Shown: in pieces, positions 3,486 through 9,026 of the stretch
How positions within the stretch are numbered: the stretch's first letter is position 1
Layout: every line of letters begins with the position of its first letter
Translations under genes and position numbers: made by a program
DNA from: Curtobacterium poinsettiae
GTDB taxonomy: Bacteria > Actinomycetota > Actinomycetes > Actinomycetales > Microbacteriaceae
Length of the DNA stretch: 64,000 nucleotides
Assembly: GCF_025677645.1 (NCBI RefSeq)
Contig: NZ_CP106879.1
Span: 2,356,001-2,420,000 of the forward strand
Direction of reading: 5' to 3'
The notes under the pieces: generated by a model
The model's input: the letters and a program-made list of their open reading frames with translations, nothing else
Database searches by the model: none
What the model was told of the DNA's origin: nothing

Positions 3486-4679
3486 GTGACCGCCCTGTCG
3501 ACGACCACGGCCCCTCGGCTCGCTCCGCTGTACGCAGCGGGGTTCGTGACCGCCTTCGGGGCGAACGGCATCGCGGCGGCGGTCGGCGGCGAGCACCTCG
3601 AGCTCGGCCTGACGCTCGCGTGGCTGGGGCTCTTCCTGGCGCTGTACGACGTCGCCGAACTCGTCCTCAAGCCGGTCTTCGGTGCCCTGTCCGACCGCAT
3701 CGGCCCACGACCGGTGATCGTCGGCGGACTCGTGGTGTTCGCGGCAGCTTCACTCATCGGCGTCTTCGGGACCGGTCCGTTCTGGCTCGGGCTCGCCCGT
3801 CTGCTGCAGGGTGCCGGAGCCTCCGCGTTCTCGCCGGCGTCGTCCGCCGCGGTCGCCCGCCTCGTGCCAGCGCACCGTCGCGGGACGTACTTCGGTCGGT
3901 ACGGCTCGTGGAAGGGTCTCGGTTACGCCGGGGGGCCGGTCATCGGTGCGGTCGTGGTGCAGTTCGGCAGCACGCAGTGGCTCTTCGGGATCCTCGTCGT
4001 GATGGCCCTCGTGACGGCGGTCGCAGTGTTCATCGCCGTCGAGCCGATCGTGCCACTGCCCCGGCAGCGGGCCACGCTCGCCGTCATGGTCCGAGCGGCC
4101 ACGGACCGCCAGTTCCTGATCCCGGTCGTCGTCCTGGCTGTCGGCAGCGCTGCGATCGGCGCCCTGACCGGGATGCTCCCCGCGCTCGGCACCGCGGTCG
4201 GCATCCCGCTCCTGGTGTCGACGCTCGCGGTCGCCGTCCTCGCGGTGACGTCGTCGCTCGTGCAGCCCGTCGCCGGACGTCTGCACGACGCCGGGCGTCT
4301 CGGCACCGGGGTGGCGGGTGTGGCCGGGACGGCCGCGGTGGCCGCTGCGTTCCTGGTGGTCGCCGTCGCACCATCGGCGGTGGCCGTCTTCATCGCGGCC
4401 CTGCTCGCCGGAGCCGGTGTCGCCACGCTGACACCCGTCGCGTTCGCGCACCTCGCCGGCACGACTCCGCCGGACCGCCTCGGTCGCACCATGGGCTCAG
4501 CGGAACTCGGACGTGAGACCGGGGACGCCGTCGGACCGCTCGTCGTCGGTGGTGTCGGCAGCACGATCGGGCTGCCGTTCGGGTTCGCGGCGTTCGCGGT
4601 GGTGGCACTCGTCGGGACGCTCGTGGCATCGCGGTTGCCGTCCGGAGCCGGCCCCGATCAGGACCGATCGCAGGCCTGA
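3486..4679 (+). CDS. MFS transporter
   Basis: A 397-residue, strongly hydrophobic protein of the major facilitator superfamily with about 12 predicted membrane segments. The loop between segments 2 and 3 carries the MFS signature (KPVFGALSDRIGPRPVI), and the RRGTYFGRYGS loop lies before segment 5. The GTG start at 3486 is preceded by AGGGTGG; the longer open frame upstream covers tRNAs and is not coding. The substrate cannot be told from sequence. The relative of drug/metabolite exporters is an inference. It stands alone, downstream of the tRNA cluster. Confidence 0.85.
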   Translation: MTALSTTTAPRLAPLYAAGFVTAFGANGIAAAVGGEHLELGLTLAWLGLFLALYDVAELVLKPVFGALSDRIGPRPVIVGGLVVFAAASLIGVFGTGPFWLGLARLLQGAGASAFSPASSAAVARLVPAHRRGTYFGRYGSWKGLGYAGGPVIGAVVVQFGSTQWLFGILVVMALVTAVAVFIAVEPIVPLPRQRATLAVMVRAATDRQFLIPVVVLAVGSAAIGALTGMLPALGTAVGIPLLVSTLAVAVLAVTSSLVQPVAGRLHDAGRLGTGVAGVAGTAAVAAAFLVVAVAPSAVAVFIAALLAGAGVATLTPVAFAHLAGTTPPDRLGRTMGSAELGRETGDAVGPLVVGGVGSTIGLPFGFAAFAVVALVGTLVASRLPSGAGPDQDRSQA

Positions 4680-4759
4680 GGTCATTCGCCCTGCAGCAAC
4701 GCTCGGCAGTACCGTGGGCTCAGCGACGGCCGCGACGGCTCGTCCGACGAGGGGGCACC

Positions 4760-4915
4760 ATGAGGATCCTGAGCATCCTGAGCATCCTGGCACGGGCACT
4801 GGGCTGGTTGCTCACGACCATCGCGAAGACGATGGGCGGGATGCGGGGCGCGAAGCCGTTCACCGATTCGCACGCGGCGCAGGTCCCGCCACGTCGTGAG
4901 GACTACCGCCCCTAG
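4760..4915 (+). CDS. Putative 51-residue protein with hydrophobic N-terminus
   Basis: A short frame starting at ATG with GGGGG seven bases upstream. It encodes a hydrophobic/amphipathic N-terminal helix (MRILSILSILARALGWLLTT), then a Gly/Met turn and a hydrophilic, proline-containing tail ending REDYRP. The repeated ATCCTGAGC unit at its start makes the ILS repeats. No function is recognised. Support comes from the ribosome site and the sensible protein composition; there is no homology evidence. Confidence 0.4.
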   Translation: MRILSILSILARALGWLLTTIAKTMGGMRGAKPFTDSHAAQVPPRREDYRP

Positions 4916-5071
4916 GGCCTCGCACCAGACCGCTGGTTGGATGGTTGCATGCCCAACGCTGGGTCGACCGTGGGACTGGTCATCCTCCGCCGATCGCGCA
5001 GGGCCGGGGCGCGTCAGCCGTCACCGTAGGATCGTCGAGCCGCATCCAGTGGAACGACGGGGGAGCACCTG

Positions 5072-5566
5072 ATGGAACAGCACACCGAATCACGCACGCG
5101 ACCGCGGGTCGTCACGATCGCCGTGGCGCTCTGGTGGGCGTCCGTCATCATCAGCCTCGTGGCCGCGGCGCCCGGCATCGTCGTGTCCATGCGTGAAGCC
5201 GGCGGCGCGATCATCGGTGCTTCGCTCGGGCTCCTCTTCGTCCTCGCCTGGTCCGCACTGTTCGTGTGGCTGGCGACGCGGATGGGACGAGGCTCCGGCA
5301 ACGCGCGACTCTGGCTGGCCATCATCGCCGGGCTGACCGCCTGCAGCGCGGTGGTCACGATCGTCACGGACGGCGCGGACTGGGGCCTCGTCGATGCCGT
5401 GTGCATCGTCGTCGCGGCGGTGCTCAGCTACCTGCCCAGCGCTCGACCGTTCTTCCCGCGCGAGGAACGACGCCCGCGAGCAGCGGAGCCCCGCACCGTC
5501 GGGTGGGACCCGACGACCGGTGAACGCATCGTCGAGACGCCCCCCTCAGGCGACCGCGCCCGCTGA
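5072..5566 (+). CDS. Four-segment membrane protein of unknown function
   Basis: A 164-residue protein with four clear hydrophobic helices (about residues 14-36, 46-67, 78-97 and 103-118) and a hydrophilic C-terminal tail. No catalytic motif is visible and I do not recognise the family. The start ATG follows GGGGGAGCACC. It stands between the small gene at 4760 and the BLUF-TetR gene. Confidence 0.7.
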   Translation: MEQHTESRTRPRVVTIAVALWWASVIISLVAAAPGIVVSMREAGGAIIGASLGLLFVLAWSALFVWLATRMGRGSGNARLWLAIIAGLTACSAVVTIVTDGADWGLVDAVCIVVAAVLSYLPSARPFFPREERRPRAAEPRTVGWDPTTGERIVETPPSGDRAR

Positions 5567-5590
5567 CGCGTACCCTGCGGAACAGCCGGA

Positions 5591-5602
5591 GAACGCGCGT
5601 TC
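5591..5602. promoter_or_regulatory. Short perfect dyad GAACGCGCGTTC
   Basis: A 12-bp perfect palindrome lies just after the membrane-protein gene. A second dyad (CGGCATCC-CC-GGATGCCG, 5653-5670) follows. Together with the 5704-5730 repeat they fill the 245-bp gap before the BLUF-TetR gene. Either could be an operator or part of a terminator. Confidence 0.3.
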
Positions 5603-5703
5603 CCCGTTGTGGGGGTACCGCTGGCAACGGCTGGGTGGTTCCATTCAGTGGTCGGCATCCCCGGATGCCGAGCAGCCACGGACCGTCTCGCGTCGCAGTG
5701 AAG

Positions 5704-5730
5704 GCGGTCACCCCTGGTTAGGGTGACCGC
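5704..5730. promoter_or_regulatory. Inverted repeat upstream of the BLUF-TetR gene, candidate operator
   Basis: Perfect 10-bp arms, GCGGTCACCC and GGGTGACCGC, are separated by seven bases. The repeat lies 81 bp before the ATG of the BLUF-TetR protein. TetR-family proteins often bind such dyads near their own genes, so autoregulation is plausible. No U tract follows, so a terminator for the preceding gene is possible but less convincing. Confidence 0.45.
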
Positions 5731-5811
5731 GAGGTGCCGGCGTGTCGATTCGGGTTCGACACGGCGGCGCCTCCCACCCGCCGATGGACCGCTCGACCAG
5801 GAAGCAGCACG

Positions 5812-6864
5812 ATGCGATCGCTCGTCTACACCAGCACCCAGACCCGTCCGATCACGGATTCCGAACTCGCCCAGATCCTCGCGGTCGGGCGCGAGAAGAA
5901 CACCCGGCTCGGGGTCACGGGCATGCTCGCGCACCGCGACGACAACTGCATCGGGATCATCGAGGGCGAGGACGACGTCGTCCGGCAGCGCTTCGAGCAG
6001 GTCCGGGCCGATCCGCGGCACACCAACGTCCGGGTGCTGCTCGACGAGCCGATCACCCAGCGCTCGTTCCCCGACTGGTCGATGGCCTTCCAGTCCCTCG
6101 ATCCGCTCATGCACGACGTCCCGGGGTTCAGCGACCTCTTCAGCGCCGGCCGTCCGACCGACCCGGCGTTCGGTGCGTCGCGCGCGCGTGCCCTGCTGGA
6201 CTGGTTCCGGAAGCACCCGCTGGCCCCGCTGACGAACCAGAACGCCGTGGATGAAGAGGTTCCGCGCACCCGAGCGATCAACGGTGCGATCGCGGTCATC
6301 CACGACGGAGGACTGTCCCGGTTCTCGCTCGACAGCGTCGCGTCCCGGTCGGGGATGCGACCCGCAGAGATCCTCGAGCTCTTCCCGTCCGAACCCGCGT
6401 TGCTGGCCGCCGCCGTGATGCGGTGGACCCGCGCCGTGTCGGCCCCGCTGCTGCCGCTCGCGGGCGAGAAGGGCACCGTCGCGTTCCTGCACGCGCTGCT
6501 CTCCGCACACGCTGAGGACCCGGCGCTCATGCGTCTGATCGCCGCGACGCTCGCCATCTCGACCGACCCGTCGACGGACGGCGCCGACTACTACCGGTCC
6601 GCGTACGGGCAGTTCCGGGAGACCGTGCGGACAGCACTGCGGGAGGACGTCCGTGCCGGGCGCGAGCCGGCCACGATGGACCCGATCCGCGGTGCGCAGC
6701 AGCTCCTCGCCCTCTACGACGGGCTCCGTCTGCAGGCGCTCCTCACCACGGACACCGACGTCGTCGACGCGTTCGACCGCGCCGCCGCCCGTATGCGCCG
6801 CGGGTGGTCCGAGCAGTACGAGGAGACCACCGTGTGGGACATCTCCGCGCCGGCCGTGGACTGA
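5812..6864 (+). CDS. BLUF-domain photosensor fused to a TetR-type regulator
   Basis: A 350-residue two-domain protein. Residues 1-95 form a BLUF (blue-light, FAD-binding) domain: LVYTS at the start, GVTGML, an EG turn, DPRH and FPDWSM. Compared with AppA, Tyr21, Asn45, Trp104 and Met106 are kept as Tyr6, Asn30, Trp89 and Met91. The essential Gln63 position, which falls at residue 48 by exact spacing, is glycine. Residues about 151-200 form a TetR helix-turn-helix (FSLDSVASRSGM then EILELFPSEPALLAAAV), followed by a helical ligand-type domain. The ATG at 5812 has AGGAAG upstream. The fusion suggests a flavin-linked transcription factor; with Gln missing, normal BLUF photochemistry is doubtful. 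Confidence 0.85.
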   Translation: MRSLVYTSTQTRPITDSELAQILAVGREKNTRLGVTGMLAHRDDNCIGIIEGEDDVVRQRFEQVRADPRHTNVRVLLDEPITQRSFPDWSMAFQSLDPLMHDVPGFSDLFSAGRPTDPAFGASRARALLDWFRKHPLAPLTNQNAVDEEVPRTRAINGAIAVIHDGGLSRFSLDSVASRSGMRPAEILELFPSEPALLAAAVMRWTRAVSAPLLPLAGEKGTVAFLHALLSAHAEDPALMRLIAATLAISTDPSTDGADYYRSAYGQFRETVRTALREDVRAGREPATMDPIRGAQQLLALYDGLRLQALLTTDTDVVDAFDRAAARMRRGWSEQYEETTVWDISAPAVD

Positions 6865-6868
6865 CGCT

Positions 6869-7351
6869 TCAGCGAACCAGGCGGACGGTCCGCGGGATGG
6901 GGCCGAACGCCGACTCGGCCCCGTCGGGTGCGAACCCGTTGCGCCGGGAGAAGGCGTGCGCACGCGGGTTGTCCGCAGCCACCCACAGCGACGCCGGACG
7001 ATCGGCGAGCACGGCGTCGAGGAGCGCCTGGGCGGCTCCGGTCCCGTGCGCACGGGCCAGGACGGAGAGCGTCGTCAGCTCCTCGGGGCGGACGGCATCC
7101 GGCTCCGGAGTCGACTGCGCTGCGGCGAACCCCACGAGTCCGGTGCGGTCCAGGGCGACGCGGACGCTCCCTCGGACACCAGGGCTCGCGAGCGTCGACC
7201 GCCACATGTCGACCCGGCGACCCGCGTCGAACCACGGGCTCGCGTCCGGGTCGTCGACGAACCGTCCGTAGGTCTCCCGCCACGACACCGTGTGCAGGTG
7301 GGCGATTGCATCCGCATCGGCGCGCGTCGCCGGCCGGATCAGCGTCGTGAC
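6869..7351 (-). CDS. GNAT-family N-acetyltransferase
   Basis: About 160 residues from a GTG with GAGG five bases upstream; longer starts up to 7399 are possible. It begins LIRPATRADADAIAHLH, typical of GNAT enzymes. The acetyl-CoA motif region reads LTTLSVLARAHGTGAAQALLDAV, followed by LWVAADNPRAHAFSRRNGF, the usual fifth-strand/helix motif. Such enzymes transfer acetyl from acetyl-CoA to an amine; the substrate is unknown. It converges on the BLUF-TetR gene with a four-base gap. Confidence 0.85.
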   Translation of the reverse strand, partial: VTTLIRPATRADADAIAHLHTVSWRETYGRFVDDPDASPWFDAGRRVDMWRSTLASPGVRGSVRVALDRTGLVGFAAAQSTPEPDAVRPEELTTLSVLARAHGTGAAQALLDAVLADRPASLWVAADNPRAHAFSRRNGFAPDGAESAFGPIPRTVRLVR

Positions 7352-7399
7352 GTCATCCTCGTTGCCCACACGGTCAGGGTAGCGATCGGCCGCTGGCAC

Positions 7400-7690
7400 T
7401 CAGAGCCGGAGGTCGAGGTCGAGGACCCCCGCACCGCCGAGGAACAGCGGCACGATGATCCCGAACAGGGTCAGCGTCGCCCCGATCAGGATCGCCGCGA
7501 ACGCGATCCCGTCGCCCCGGTCTCCGGTCAGTCGGACGTCGCGCCGCGCGAGGAACCCGACGACGAGCCCACCGATCGGTGCCACGAACGCGAGGGCGAT
7601 CGCCACCACCGCGAGCAGGCTCAGCGGTGCAACCGCTGTGGTCGTCGCCGGGGCCGTAGCGGGAGTGGCGGCTGGTGCGGTGTGGGTCAC
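7400..7690 (-). CDS. Small DUF4190-like membrane protein
   Basis: A 96-residue protein with an Ala/Thr/Pro-rich start and two membrane helices. The motif PIGGLVVGFLARRDVRLTGDRGDGIAFAAILIG matches the pattern of DUF4190 proteins (G-hairpin between two helices). These are common in actinobacteria and of unknown function. It lies upstream of the GNAT gene on the same strand and may be cotranscribed with it. Confidence 0.75.
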   Translation of the reverse strand: MTHTAPAATPATAPATTTAVAPLSLLAVVAIALAFVAPIGGLVVGFLARRDVRLTGDRGDGIAFAAILIGATLTLFGIIVPLFLGGAGVLDLDLRL

Positions 7691-7832
7691 GTCGGTGGTC
7701 CGTTCAGGGAGGCGAGGAAAGCCCGGTGGGCCGGGCCCGATGCCCAGCGTACGGCGAGGAGGACCGGCTGGGCAGTACCCCGTCGTGGTGGTGTTCCCCG
7801 CGGTGTCGGTCGGCGCCGCTAGCGTCCGTCAC

Positions 7833-9026
7833 ATGCGCCCGATCCGCCTCCAGGTGTCCGATGCCGATCTCGACGACCTGCACGCCCGTCTGCAGCGGGC
7901 GAGCGTTCCGGGACCCATCGGCGATGCGGCAGCCGGCAGCGCGCTGTCGATGGAGCGCCTGTCCGGCTTGCTCGAGCACTGGCGGACCGCGTTCGACTGG
8001 CGTCGCGTCGAGGACGAGCTGGCTACCGTGCCGCAGTTCCAGGCGGAGGTCGACGGGCAGCAGCTGCACTTCGCCCGGCTGACGGCGGCTGGGGACCCGA
8101 CGGTGCACATCCCGGTGATCGCGTTCCACGGCTGGCCGTACTCGTTCGTCGAGATGCTCCCGTTCGCCCGTGCGCTCTCCGGACGCATCGTCCGGCTCGC
8201 TGACGGCCGGACCGCGGGGTTCGACGTCGTCGTCCCGTCGCTGCCCGGTTTCGGCGCCTCGGCTCCGCTTGCGGGACGCCCGTTCACAGGCCCCGTGGTC
8301 GCCGAGCTGATGCACGCGCTCATGACGGAGGTGCTCGACCACGATCGGTACGTGACCTACGGGGAGGACGTCGGGTCGACGACGAGCGACTGGCTGGCCG
8401 CGCTGCACCCGGACTCGGTGATCGGGCTCTTCGCGACCCATGCCGCGTTCCCGCCGCCGTCACGCGCACAGGGCCTGACGGACGAGGAAGCCGGATGGCT
8501 GCGGCAGCACGACGCCGAGTGGGCGAGTGCGCTGGGCTACGCGAAGGTGCAGGCGACCCGGCCGGAGGTCCTGGCAGCGGCCCTGATGGACTCGCCGCTC
8601 GGCCTGGCCGCGTGGATCACCGAGAAACTGCTCGCCTGGTCCGGCGAGGGATCGTGGTGGACAGACGACGAGCTGCTGCGCACCGTCTCGCTCTACTGGT
8701 TCACCCGGAGCACGGGGTCGTCCTTCCGGCCGTACCTCGACCACCCGCGGCAGCCGGAACTCCCGATCGTCGAGGTGCCCGTCGCGGTTGCCGTGCAGAC
8801 CGGCGAGCGCGGGTTGCCCCGGTCGTACGGGGAGCGCACGTACCGCGACGTCCGGAGCTGGCACGACCTCGACCAAGGTGGCCACTTCACCGCGTGGCAG
8901 GTCCCGCGCACGCTCGCCGACGAGGTCGCCGCCTTCGCGACCGCGATCGGAGCAGCGGCGCCGGTCGGACCGGGCGCGGCGGTCGGCCCCGCTCAGGTGG
9001 GCGGTCGCAGCGCGCCCTCGACGTAA
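7833..9026 (+). CDS. Epoxide hydrolase (alpha/beta-hydrolase with EHN domain)
   Basis: A 397-residue protein. Residues 1-105 form the epoxide-hydrolase N-terminal domain, ending in the HGWP oxyanion motif (99-102). The nucleophile is Asp179 in GEDVG. A catalytic His lies in DLDQGGHFTAWQVP near the C-terminus. These enzymes add water to epoxides through an ester on the Asp. The ATG at 7833 lies seven bases after TAGCGT, so the mRNA is probably leaderless. The real substrate is unknown. Length fits the microsomal-type bacterial group. Confidence 0.88.
   Translation: MRPIRLQVSDADLDDLHARLQRASVPGPIGDAAAGSALSMERLSGLLEHWRTAFDWRRVEDELATVPQFQAEVDGQQLHFARLTAAGDPTVHIPVIAFHGWPYSFVEMLPFARALSGRIVRLADGRTAGFDVVVPSLPGFGASAPLAGRPFTGPVVAELMHALMTEVLDHDRYVTYGEDVGSTTSDWLAALHPDSVIGLFATHAAFPPPSRAQGLTDEEAGWLRQHDAEWASALGYAKVQATRPEVLAAALMDSPLGLAAWITEKLLAWSGEGSWWTDDELLRTVSLYWFTRSTGSSFRPYLDHPRQPELPIVEVPVAVAVQTGERGLPRSYGERTYRDVRSWHDLDQGGHFTAWQVPRTLADEVAAFATAIGAAAPVGPGAAVGPAQVGGRSAPST

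Follow-up and report, generated by a model that had tools for sequence, protein, structure and literature searches.

A putative flavin sensor lacking the BLUF glutamine, joined to a TetR-like half, in Curtobacterium

At the locus considered here, a BLUF domain stands in front of a TetR-like half and carries glycine at the position of the glutamine through which the BLUF light switch is described to work. What could such a protein sense, and what could it do with the signal? The gene lies in a window of 64,000 nucleotides from Curtobacterium poinsettiae (the whole stretch of DNA that was analysed; coordinates below are positions in it), and at 5812-6864 of the plus strand it encodes a 350-residue protein with an N-terminal BLUF domain and a TetR-like C-terminal half. 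Judged from its sequence, the product is most likely a putative flavin sensor whose photochemistry is altered or which responds to redox state, coupled to the TetR-like half. The features on which the argument draws are as follows.

5704..5730, plus strand: leader hairpin 1, a 10-bp inverted repeat with loop CTGGTTA
5731..5773, plus strand: leader hairpin 2, with loop TTCGGGT
5799..5804, plus strand: probable ribosome-binding site AGGAAG, read by eye
5812..6864, plus strand: BLUF-TetR-like gene, open reading frame of 350 aa
5815..6087, plus strand: BLUF domain, residues 2-92
5827..5829, plus strand: Tyr6 codon (AppA Tyr21; Phe in two side clades)
5947..5949, plus strand: Cys46 codon (Phe in 119 of 121 Gln-bearing BLUF domains)
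5953..5955, plus strand: Gly48 codon, GGG, at the AppA Gln63 position
6103..6213, plus strand: BLUF cap helices, residues 98-134 (model helices 98-102 and 118-134)
6223..6258, plus strand: flexible linker, residues 138-149 (pLDDT below 50)
6262..6411, plus strand: TetR-like helix-turn-helix, residues 151-200, with an atypical recognition helix at about 182-191 (6355-6384)
6424..6807, plus strand: TetR C-terminal core (BetI type), residues about 205-332

Translation from the ATG at 5812 begins with the MRSLVYTS-type sequence common to most relatives, and an alternative start at GTG 5734 was rejected because the relatives begin at the ATG. Pfam PF04940 matches residues 2-92 with 93.1 bits against a cut-off of 25, and the protein has the BLUF fold with its cap helices. 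The C-terminal half is above the cut-off for TetR_C_6 (35.7 bits against 27) and below that for TetR_N (15.9 against 24), while within family set A1 these two profiles are matched by 50 of 50 and 21 of 50 members, respectively, at E <= 0.01. A fold model supports an all-helical TetR fold for this half, in agreement with the BLUF plus TetR-type architecture that the preliminary description of this DNA had proposed. Some source database records name such proteins AcrR-type transcriptional regulators, a naming that this family calls into question.

The same description had placed Tyr6, Asn30, Trp89 and Met91 opposite AppA Tyr21, Asn45, Trp104 and Met106, and Gly48 opposite Gln63. Alignment to AppA chain 2iyg pairs residues 5-95 with chain residues 20-110, an offset of 15 at both ends that fits all five assignments, and the alignments to BlrB (2byc) and OaPAC (5x4t) likewise set Gly48 opposite a glutamine. 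The window protein therefore has the reactive tyrosine and the Asn45 equivalent, and lacks the reactive glutamine of the Tyr-Gln pair. It had been suggested that the conservation of Gly48 be checked, and it is conserved: in the 87 of 95 stored proteins (after the third search) that show the motif around this position, window protein included, residue 48 is glycine in 84, alanine in three and glutamine in none. Four of the other eight have no N-terminal part (P0069, P0071, P0073, P0076), three have no BLUF match listed (P0077, P0078, P0095), and the last, P0079, is a BLUF-EAL protein that carries the glutamine. An earlier alignment of 76 family rows, 72 of which cover the position, gave 70 Gly, 2 Ala and no Gln, and glycine is present, and glutamine absent, in all 49 unique BLUF-TetR domains taken from genomes. 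Codon 48 is GGC in 23, GGG in 22, GGT in two and GGA in one of 48 coding sequences, thus it is the amino acid itself that has been kept. A sequencing error at residue 48 is excluded by the family-wide Gly or Ala and by the use of four glycine codons.

To place this change among other BLUF domains, we drew on a PF04940 profile search that found the domain in 72 of 299 genomes of the family and in 10 of 396 of the phylum, the own genome being in both counts, with sequence stretches fetched for listed matches not yet covered by a locus. In the resulting 173 unique BLUF domains, glutamine is found in 122 short proteins and one BLUF-cyclase (L063), glycine in 49 BLUF-TetR proteins and histidine in one broken gene; the BLUF-TetR rows were collected mainly by similarity to the window protein, and a distant Gln-bearing BLUF-TetR could have escaped. 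Apart from L063, no Gln-bearing domain among the PF04940 matches has a C-terminal part of more than 75 residues. Rows of fewer than 80 letters were removed from the tree, conservation and pattern comparisons. Glutamine is then found in 121 of 122 non-TetR BLUF domains of at least 80 letters, and, as the group of 121 is defined as Gln-bearing, the count against glutamine is the single broken row L153. This short BLUF gene (G308:C116:345382-345618) contains one stop, has His at the Gln position and lies about 2 kb from an intact BLUF gene.

Seventeen positions are at least 95% conserved in the 121 Gln-bearing domains, and 15 of them, among them Tyr6, Ser8, Asn30, Asp67, Arg69, His70, Trp89 and Met91, are unchanged in all 39 domains of the main BLUF-TetR clade. 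The only two that differ are Phe46, replaced by Cys, and Gln48, replaced by Gly, each in 39 of 39. Positions 10, 22, 44 and 92, which are 75-95% conserved in other BLUFs, are also altered in the main clade. Strand alternation suggests that residue 46 faces the flavin as residue 48 does. Two side clades have gone further: seven domains have Phe6, Val46 and Gly48, with Ser8, Arg69 and His70 replaced in all seven, and three have Phe6, Ala46 and Gly48 together with Met8, Tyr70 and Ala91 in place of Ser8, His70 and Met91. As Tyr6 is Phe in these ten domains, the family can dispense with the photochemical tyrosine and perhaps with the flavin too. This bears on a somewhat unlikely alternative, in which the BLUF half would no longer bind flavin and would serve as a folded dimerisation or interaction module, with the signal coming from a ligand of the TetR core or from a partner. 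Side clades that lack Tyr6 and parts of Asp67-Arg69-His70 but keep the protein overall would be expected on that account, and a BetI-type TetR core is of the ligand-binding kind; a mere scaffold, however, would need none of the 15 positions that the main clade has kept without exception.

In line with the expectation that no BLUF-TetR factor had been described, our literature searches of open-licence papers found no account of a natural BLUF-TetR or of BLUF families without the glutamine. Bacterial BLUF proteins have been surveyed, with 64% reported as short and 34% as joined to EAL; the survey is of interest here for its method, as its search pattern demanded both Tyr and Gln and ended in Gln (PMC4844311), thus a Gln-less family would largely be missed by design. 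Applied to the domains gathered here, that pattern finds none of the 49 BLUF-TetR domains versus 119 of 122 others; of the 87 database sequences it matches six, two of them within residues 1-100, presumably at other glutamines.

What the loss of the glutamine would mean for the photochemistry can be judged in part from engineered proteins. As described in PMC4630285, the BLUF switch works via the Gln side chain, and light signalling persists, at a significantly reduced level, in some variants that have lost Gln or Tyr, so that radicals may suffice. For other BLUFs, Gln variants are described as trapped in a pseudo-lit state, and the Q51A variant of BlsA as lit-like in the dark and insoluble on overexpression (PMC6695109). 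Could the window protein nevertheless be an ordinary blue-light receptor, with water or another residue replacing the glutamine, as proposed for Gln-less LOV receptors? It has kept Tyr6, Asn30, Trp89 and Met91, and natural LOV receptors without their glutamine are described as likely to act as photoreceptors (PMC9098866). Its own genome also encodes three Gln-bearing BLUFs besides it, suggesting that light sensing is probably in use there. We consider this explanation distinctly unlikely all the same, given a switch that acts through the glutamine and the significantly reduced signalling of variants without Gln or Tyr (PMC4630285). In the same genome, two of the short Gln-bearing BLUF genes (L003/L004, G000:C1:3434831-3436527) are convergent and about 1 kb apart, with an ordinary TetR gene between them.

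The fusion appears to have a single origin. In a maximum-likelihood tree of 166 domains, built on a short alignment with bootstrap unsettled and the root at the midpoint, all 48 BLUF-TetR rows fall on one side of one branch (support 100/99), and a short Gln-bearing BLUF from a genome of the same genus (L051) joins their clade (support 99/96). This 137-residue protein ends directly past the cap helix (...VEWFRKRPSFT), where the fusion proteins continue into the linker. The family is carried by 40 of 60 Curtobacterium genomes, the own genome included, as judged by matches from the protein start through most of both domains; these hold 56 copies, up to five per genome, one of them cut at residue 286 by a contig end, and one further genome of the 60 has a copy matched just to residue 236. 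In the draw of family genomes, with only the best candidates per genome scored, such a match at E 1e-44 was found in three of seven listed genomes of the genus and in none of 292 others. Names from outside the genus are those of a Microbacterium record (P0048) and a Frigoribacterium record (P0071, without the N-terminal part).

Both the BLUF half and the TetR core are under purifying selection. For 48 coding sequences, compared in 169 pairs that share at least 78% identity and are not independent of one another, dN/dS is about 0.13 for the BLUF domain, 0.145 for the C-terminal core and 0.18 for the whole protein. The value for the short beta-3 stretch 40-56 is 0.29, with low synonymous change, and the recognition helix, at 0.52, is the fastest-evolving of the stretches measured. 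These values largely refute a decaying family, a fusion that lost sensor and DNA contact and is now drifting, although both hallmark sites have been lost and some relatives look truncated (P0068 and P0070 have no TetR Pfam match, and L052 matches residues 1-235 only). The several copies found in single genomes and the 156 member sequences of the 90% cluster P0003 also speak against decay, which we regard as very improbable.

If the BLUF half is a flavin sensor, the obvious proposal for its output would be a one-component factor that binds DNA, as the preliminary description had it; its architecture stands, as set out above, and plain DNA binding is in doubt. In TetR proteins, the usual aromatic (Tyr) and basic (Lys or Arg) positions in and after the recognition helix contact DNA. 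In the helix comparison, for which 41 of the 49 BLUF-TetR members of set A1 could be aligned, the aromatic at the usual Tyr position is present in none of the 41, versus 26 of 30 ordinary TetRs of the own genome, the controls being the best 30 of 43 TetR_N matches, a choice that favours canonical helices. A basic residue three after the Phe is found in 10 of 29 BLUF-TetRs (the window protein has Glu) versus 28 of 28 own-genome TetRs, and the mean net charge of the helix is -1.2 in the 41 BLUF-TetRs versus +1.9 in the controls. With a helix that lacks the usual aromatic, mostly lacks the basic residue and is acidic, a reading as a light-controlled DNA-binding repressor is in doubt. The helix may still contact DNA, in a different manner and with a specificity that changes fast, or binding may have been lost. 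By eye, the paralogues of this TetR subfamily that have no BLUF domain show similar recognition helices. The family is therefore unusual at both ends, with a BLUF domain without the switch residue and a TetR-like half without the usual recognition-helix residues.

The inverted repeat at 5704-5730 had been put forward as an operator at which DNA binding might be tested, and this too is now in doubt. RNA folding of window positions 5690-5811 gives two abutting hairpins, of which the repeat forms the first, better than 200 of 200 shuffles (z -3.96), and the 7-base loops of both are conserved. In six relatives, 95.8% of leader cells pair, a value reached by 18 of 500 shuffles; two pairs, both in hairpin 1, are changed on both sides, which 130 of 500 shuffles also reach, thus the covariation is weak. 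Six of the seven departures from perfect pairing of hairpin 1 in six sequences are G.U pairs. Among the upstream regions compared, the two-hairpin leader is found upstream of the closest relatives only; in genome G011 it accompanies the gene at places where no counterpart of the upstream neighbour was found: in L203 the match starts at window position 5588, and the copy in L007 is preceded by a piece that matches 5700-5774. The stretch 5704-5773 may function as an RNA element or as a site in the DNA. With a free 9-base spacer, the arms have one other exact match in the own genome, with an unrelated spacer, along with five separate one-mismatch sites and one tandem-repeat cluster. At up to two mismatches the pattern gives 119 forward and 119 reverse matches, versus 11 and 11 for the pattern read backwards. 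We take these genome-wide arm matches as no evidence for a regulon of such sites. Rfam gave no match at its gathering threshold in window 4000-8000, nor did 5400-7000 yield a match for a sigma-70-like promoter or a T-tract terminator. Upstream of the BLUF-TetR start in L011-L034, many copies share CCCGAA-N3-GGGG and TT[GC]ACTCG, as seen by eye, and these stretches are a possible promoter or binding site.

We also considered the identities of nearby genes. Within 37 context loci, one of which (L051) holds just a short BLUF, the gene order around the window gene is common only to its closest relatives (L190-L193). At E 1e-10, no window-gene neighbour stands beside BLUF-TetR in the other context loci, except for distant ADH or epoxide-hydrolase matches in L052, L195 and L196 and a 573-aa neighbour in L203. 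A linked target gene was thus rejected, as no neighbour is conserved beyond the closest relatives. A SpoIIE-type phosphatase gene lies at most 0.7 kb from BLUF-TetR in 11 of the 37 context loci, seven of which are one side clade and not independent, and in L015; it is absent in 26 of the 37. Five of these phosphatases are confirmed by Pfam SpoIIE (81 to 107 bits against a cut-off of 25), and the other calls rest on a profile built from four of these proteins. The phosphatase of L040 scores 46.5 bits with the spore_II_E equivalog, far below that model's cut-off, so that the claim extends to the domain type only. Throughout the Phe6 clade (L038-L044) the phosphatase gene is directly upstream on the same strand, six bases separating its last codon from the aligned start of BLUF-TetR; in L038 the spacing counted to the open frame instead is -12. 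Elsewhere the gene is on the opposite strand (L048-L050), or on the same strand upstream (L015) or downstream (L046).

No phosphatase gene is near the window copy, and its own genome has four SpoIIE matches, three of them above the threshold and none within 1 Mb of it. The best of these four adjoins a BLUF-less TetR paralogue (L187, G000:C1:1115289-1115888) that is 39% identical to the TetR half of the window protein. In 20 further genomes of the genus, a phosphatase is adjacent to the BLUF-less TetR paralogue in four, in addition to the own genome, so the link to SpoIIE is no general rule.

The explanation that we prefer as a whole, and to which we assign a probability of roughly 0.45, builds on the sequence changes and their conservation, the single clade, purifying selection, the fold model, the atypical recognition helix and the phosphatase neighbours. 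A short Gln-bearing BLUF would have been fused to a TetR-like protein, once as far as the tree shows, and strand beta-3 would have been altered on the branch of the fusion, with Cys for Phe46 and Gly for Gln48. The BLUF domain of the main clade most likely still binds FAD and would exchange an electron with Tyr6, and the Gln hydrogen-bond switch presumably cannot run. A radical, protonation or redox state of the flavin, whether light-driven or metabolic, would be reported, and the signal would pass via the Trp89/Met91 stretch and the cap helices to a predicted TetR-like dimer. The output is probably other than classical operator binding, and a SpoIIE-type phosphatase may be linked to it in some copies. 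A bolder proposal, and rather a long shot, is a second photochemical or redox type of BLUF, in which Cys46 and the space of Gln48 would allow a flavin radical, protonated or thiol-reacting state, the TetR-like half being a protein switch without classical DNA contact that acts partly on SpoIIE-type phosphatases feeding stress signalling.

Whether BLUF signalling needs the glutamine or just electron and proton transfer to the flavin is a question to which engineered variants give mixed answers (PMC6695109, PMC4630285, in the parts relevant here). A natural clade in which the loss of the glutamine is fixed while selection maintains the remaining pocket opens this question to testing. The Curtobacterium family is such a natural test of the BLUF sensor, the glutamine having been lost family-wide and the rest of the sensor kept in most members.

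The protein shares with PixD/Slr1694, BlrB and AppA the fold, the Tyr, Asn, Trp and Met residues and the cap helices, but differs from them in lacking the glutamine, in having Cys for Phe two residues earlier and in its C-terminal TetR-like half. BlsA of Acinetobacter is likewise a BLUF protein and is described as a photoreceptor and regulator, although it has Gln51 and no TetR half (PMC6695109, as far as its account goes). The Gln-deficient LOV receptors are also natural flavin photosensors without an active-site glutamine, but they use flavin-cysteine adduct chemistry and, as described, comprise about 350 receptors with various replacements (PMC9098866), whereas here a single clade has Gly or Ala. 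TetR regulators of the BetI/FadR type have the TetR_C_6 domain and the all-helical fold in common with the window family, which differs in the BLUF domain in front and in a recognition helix that lacks the usual aromatic and, in most cases, the basic residue. The engineered TetR-LOV repressors pLITR and pLATR similarly join a flavin photosensor to TetR, but, as presented in PMC9614035, they are man-made and carry LOV at the C-terminus of a truncated TetR, whereas the fusion in Curtobacterium is natural and has its BLUF domain at the N-terminus.
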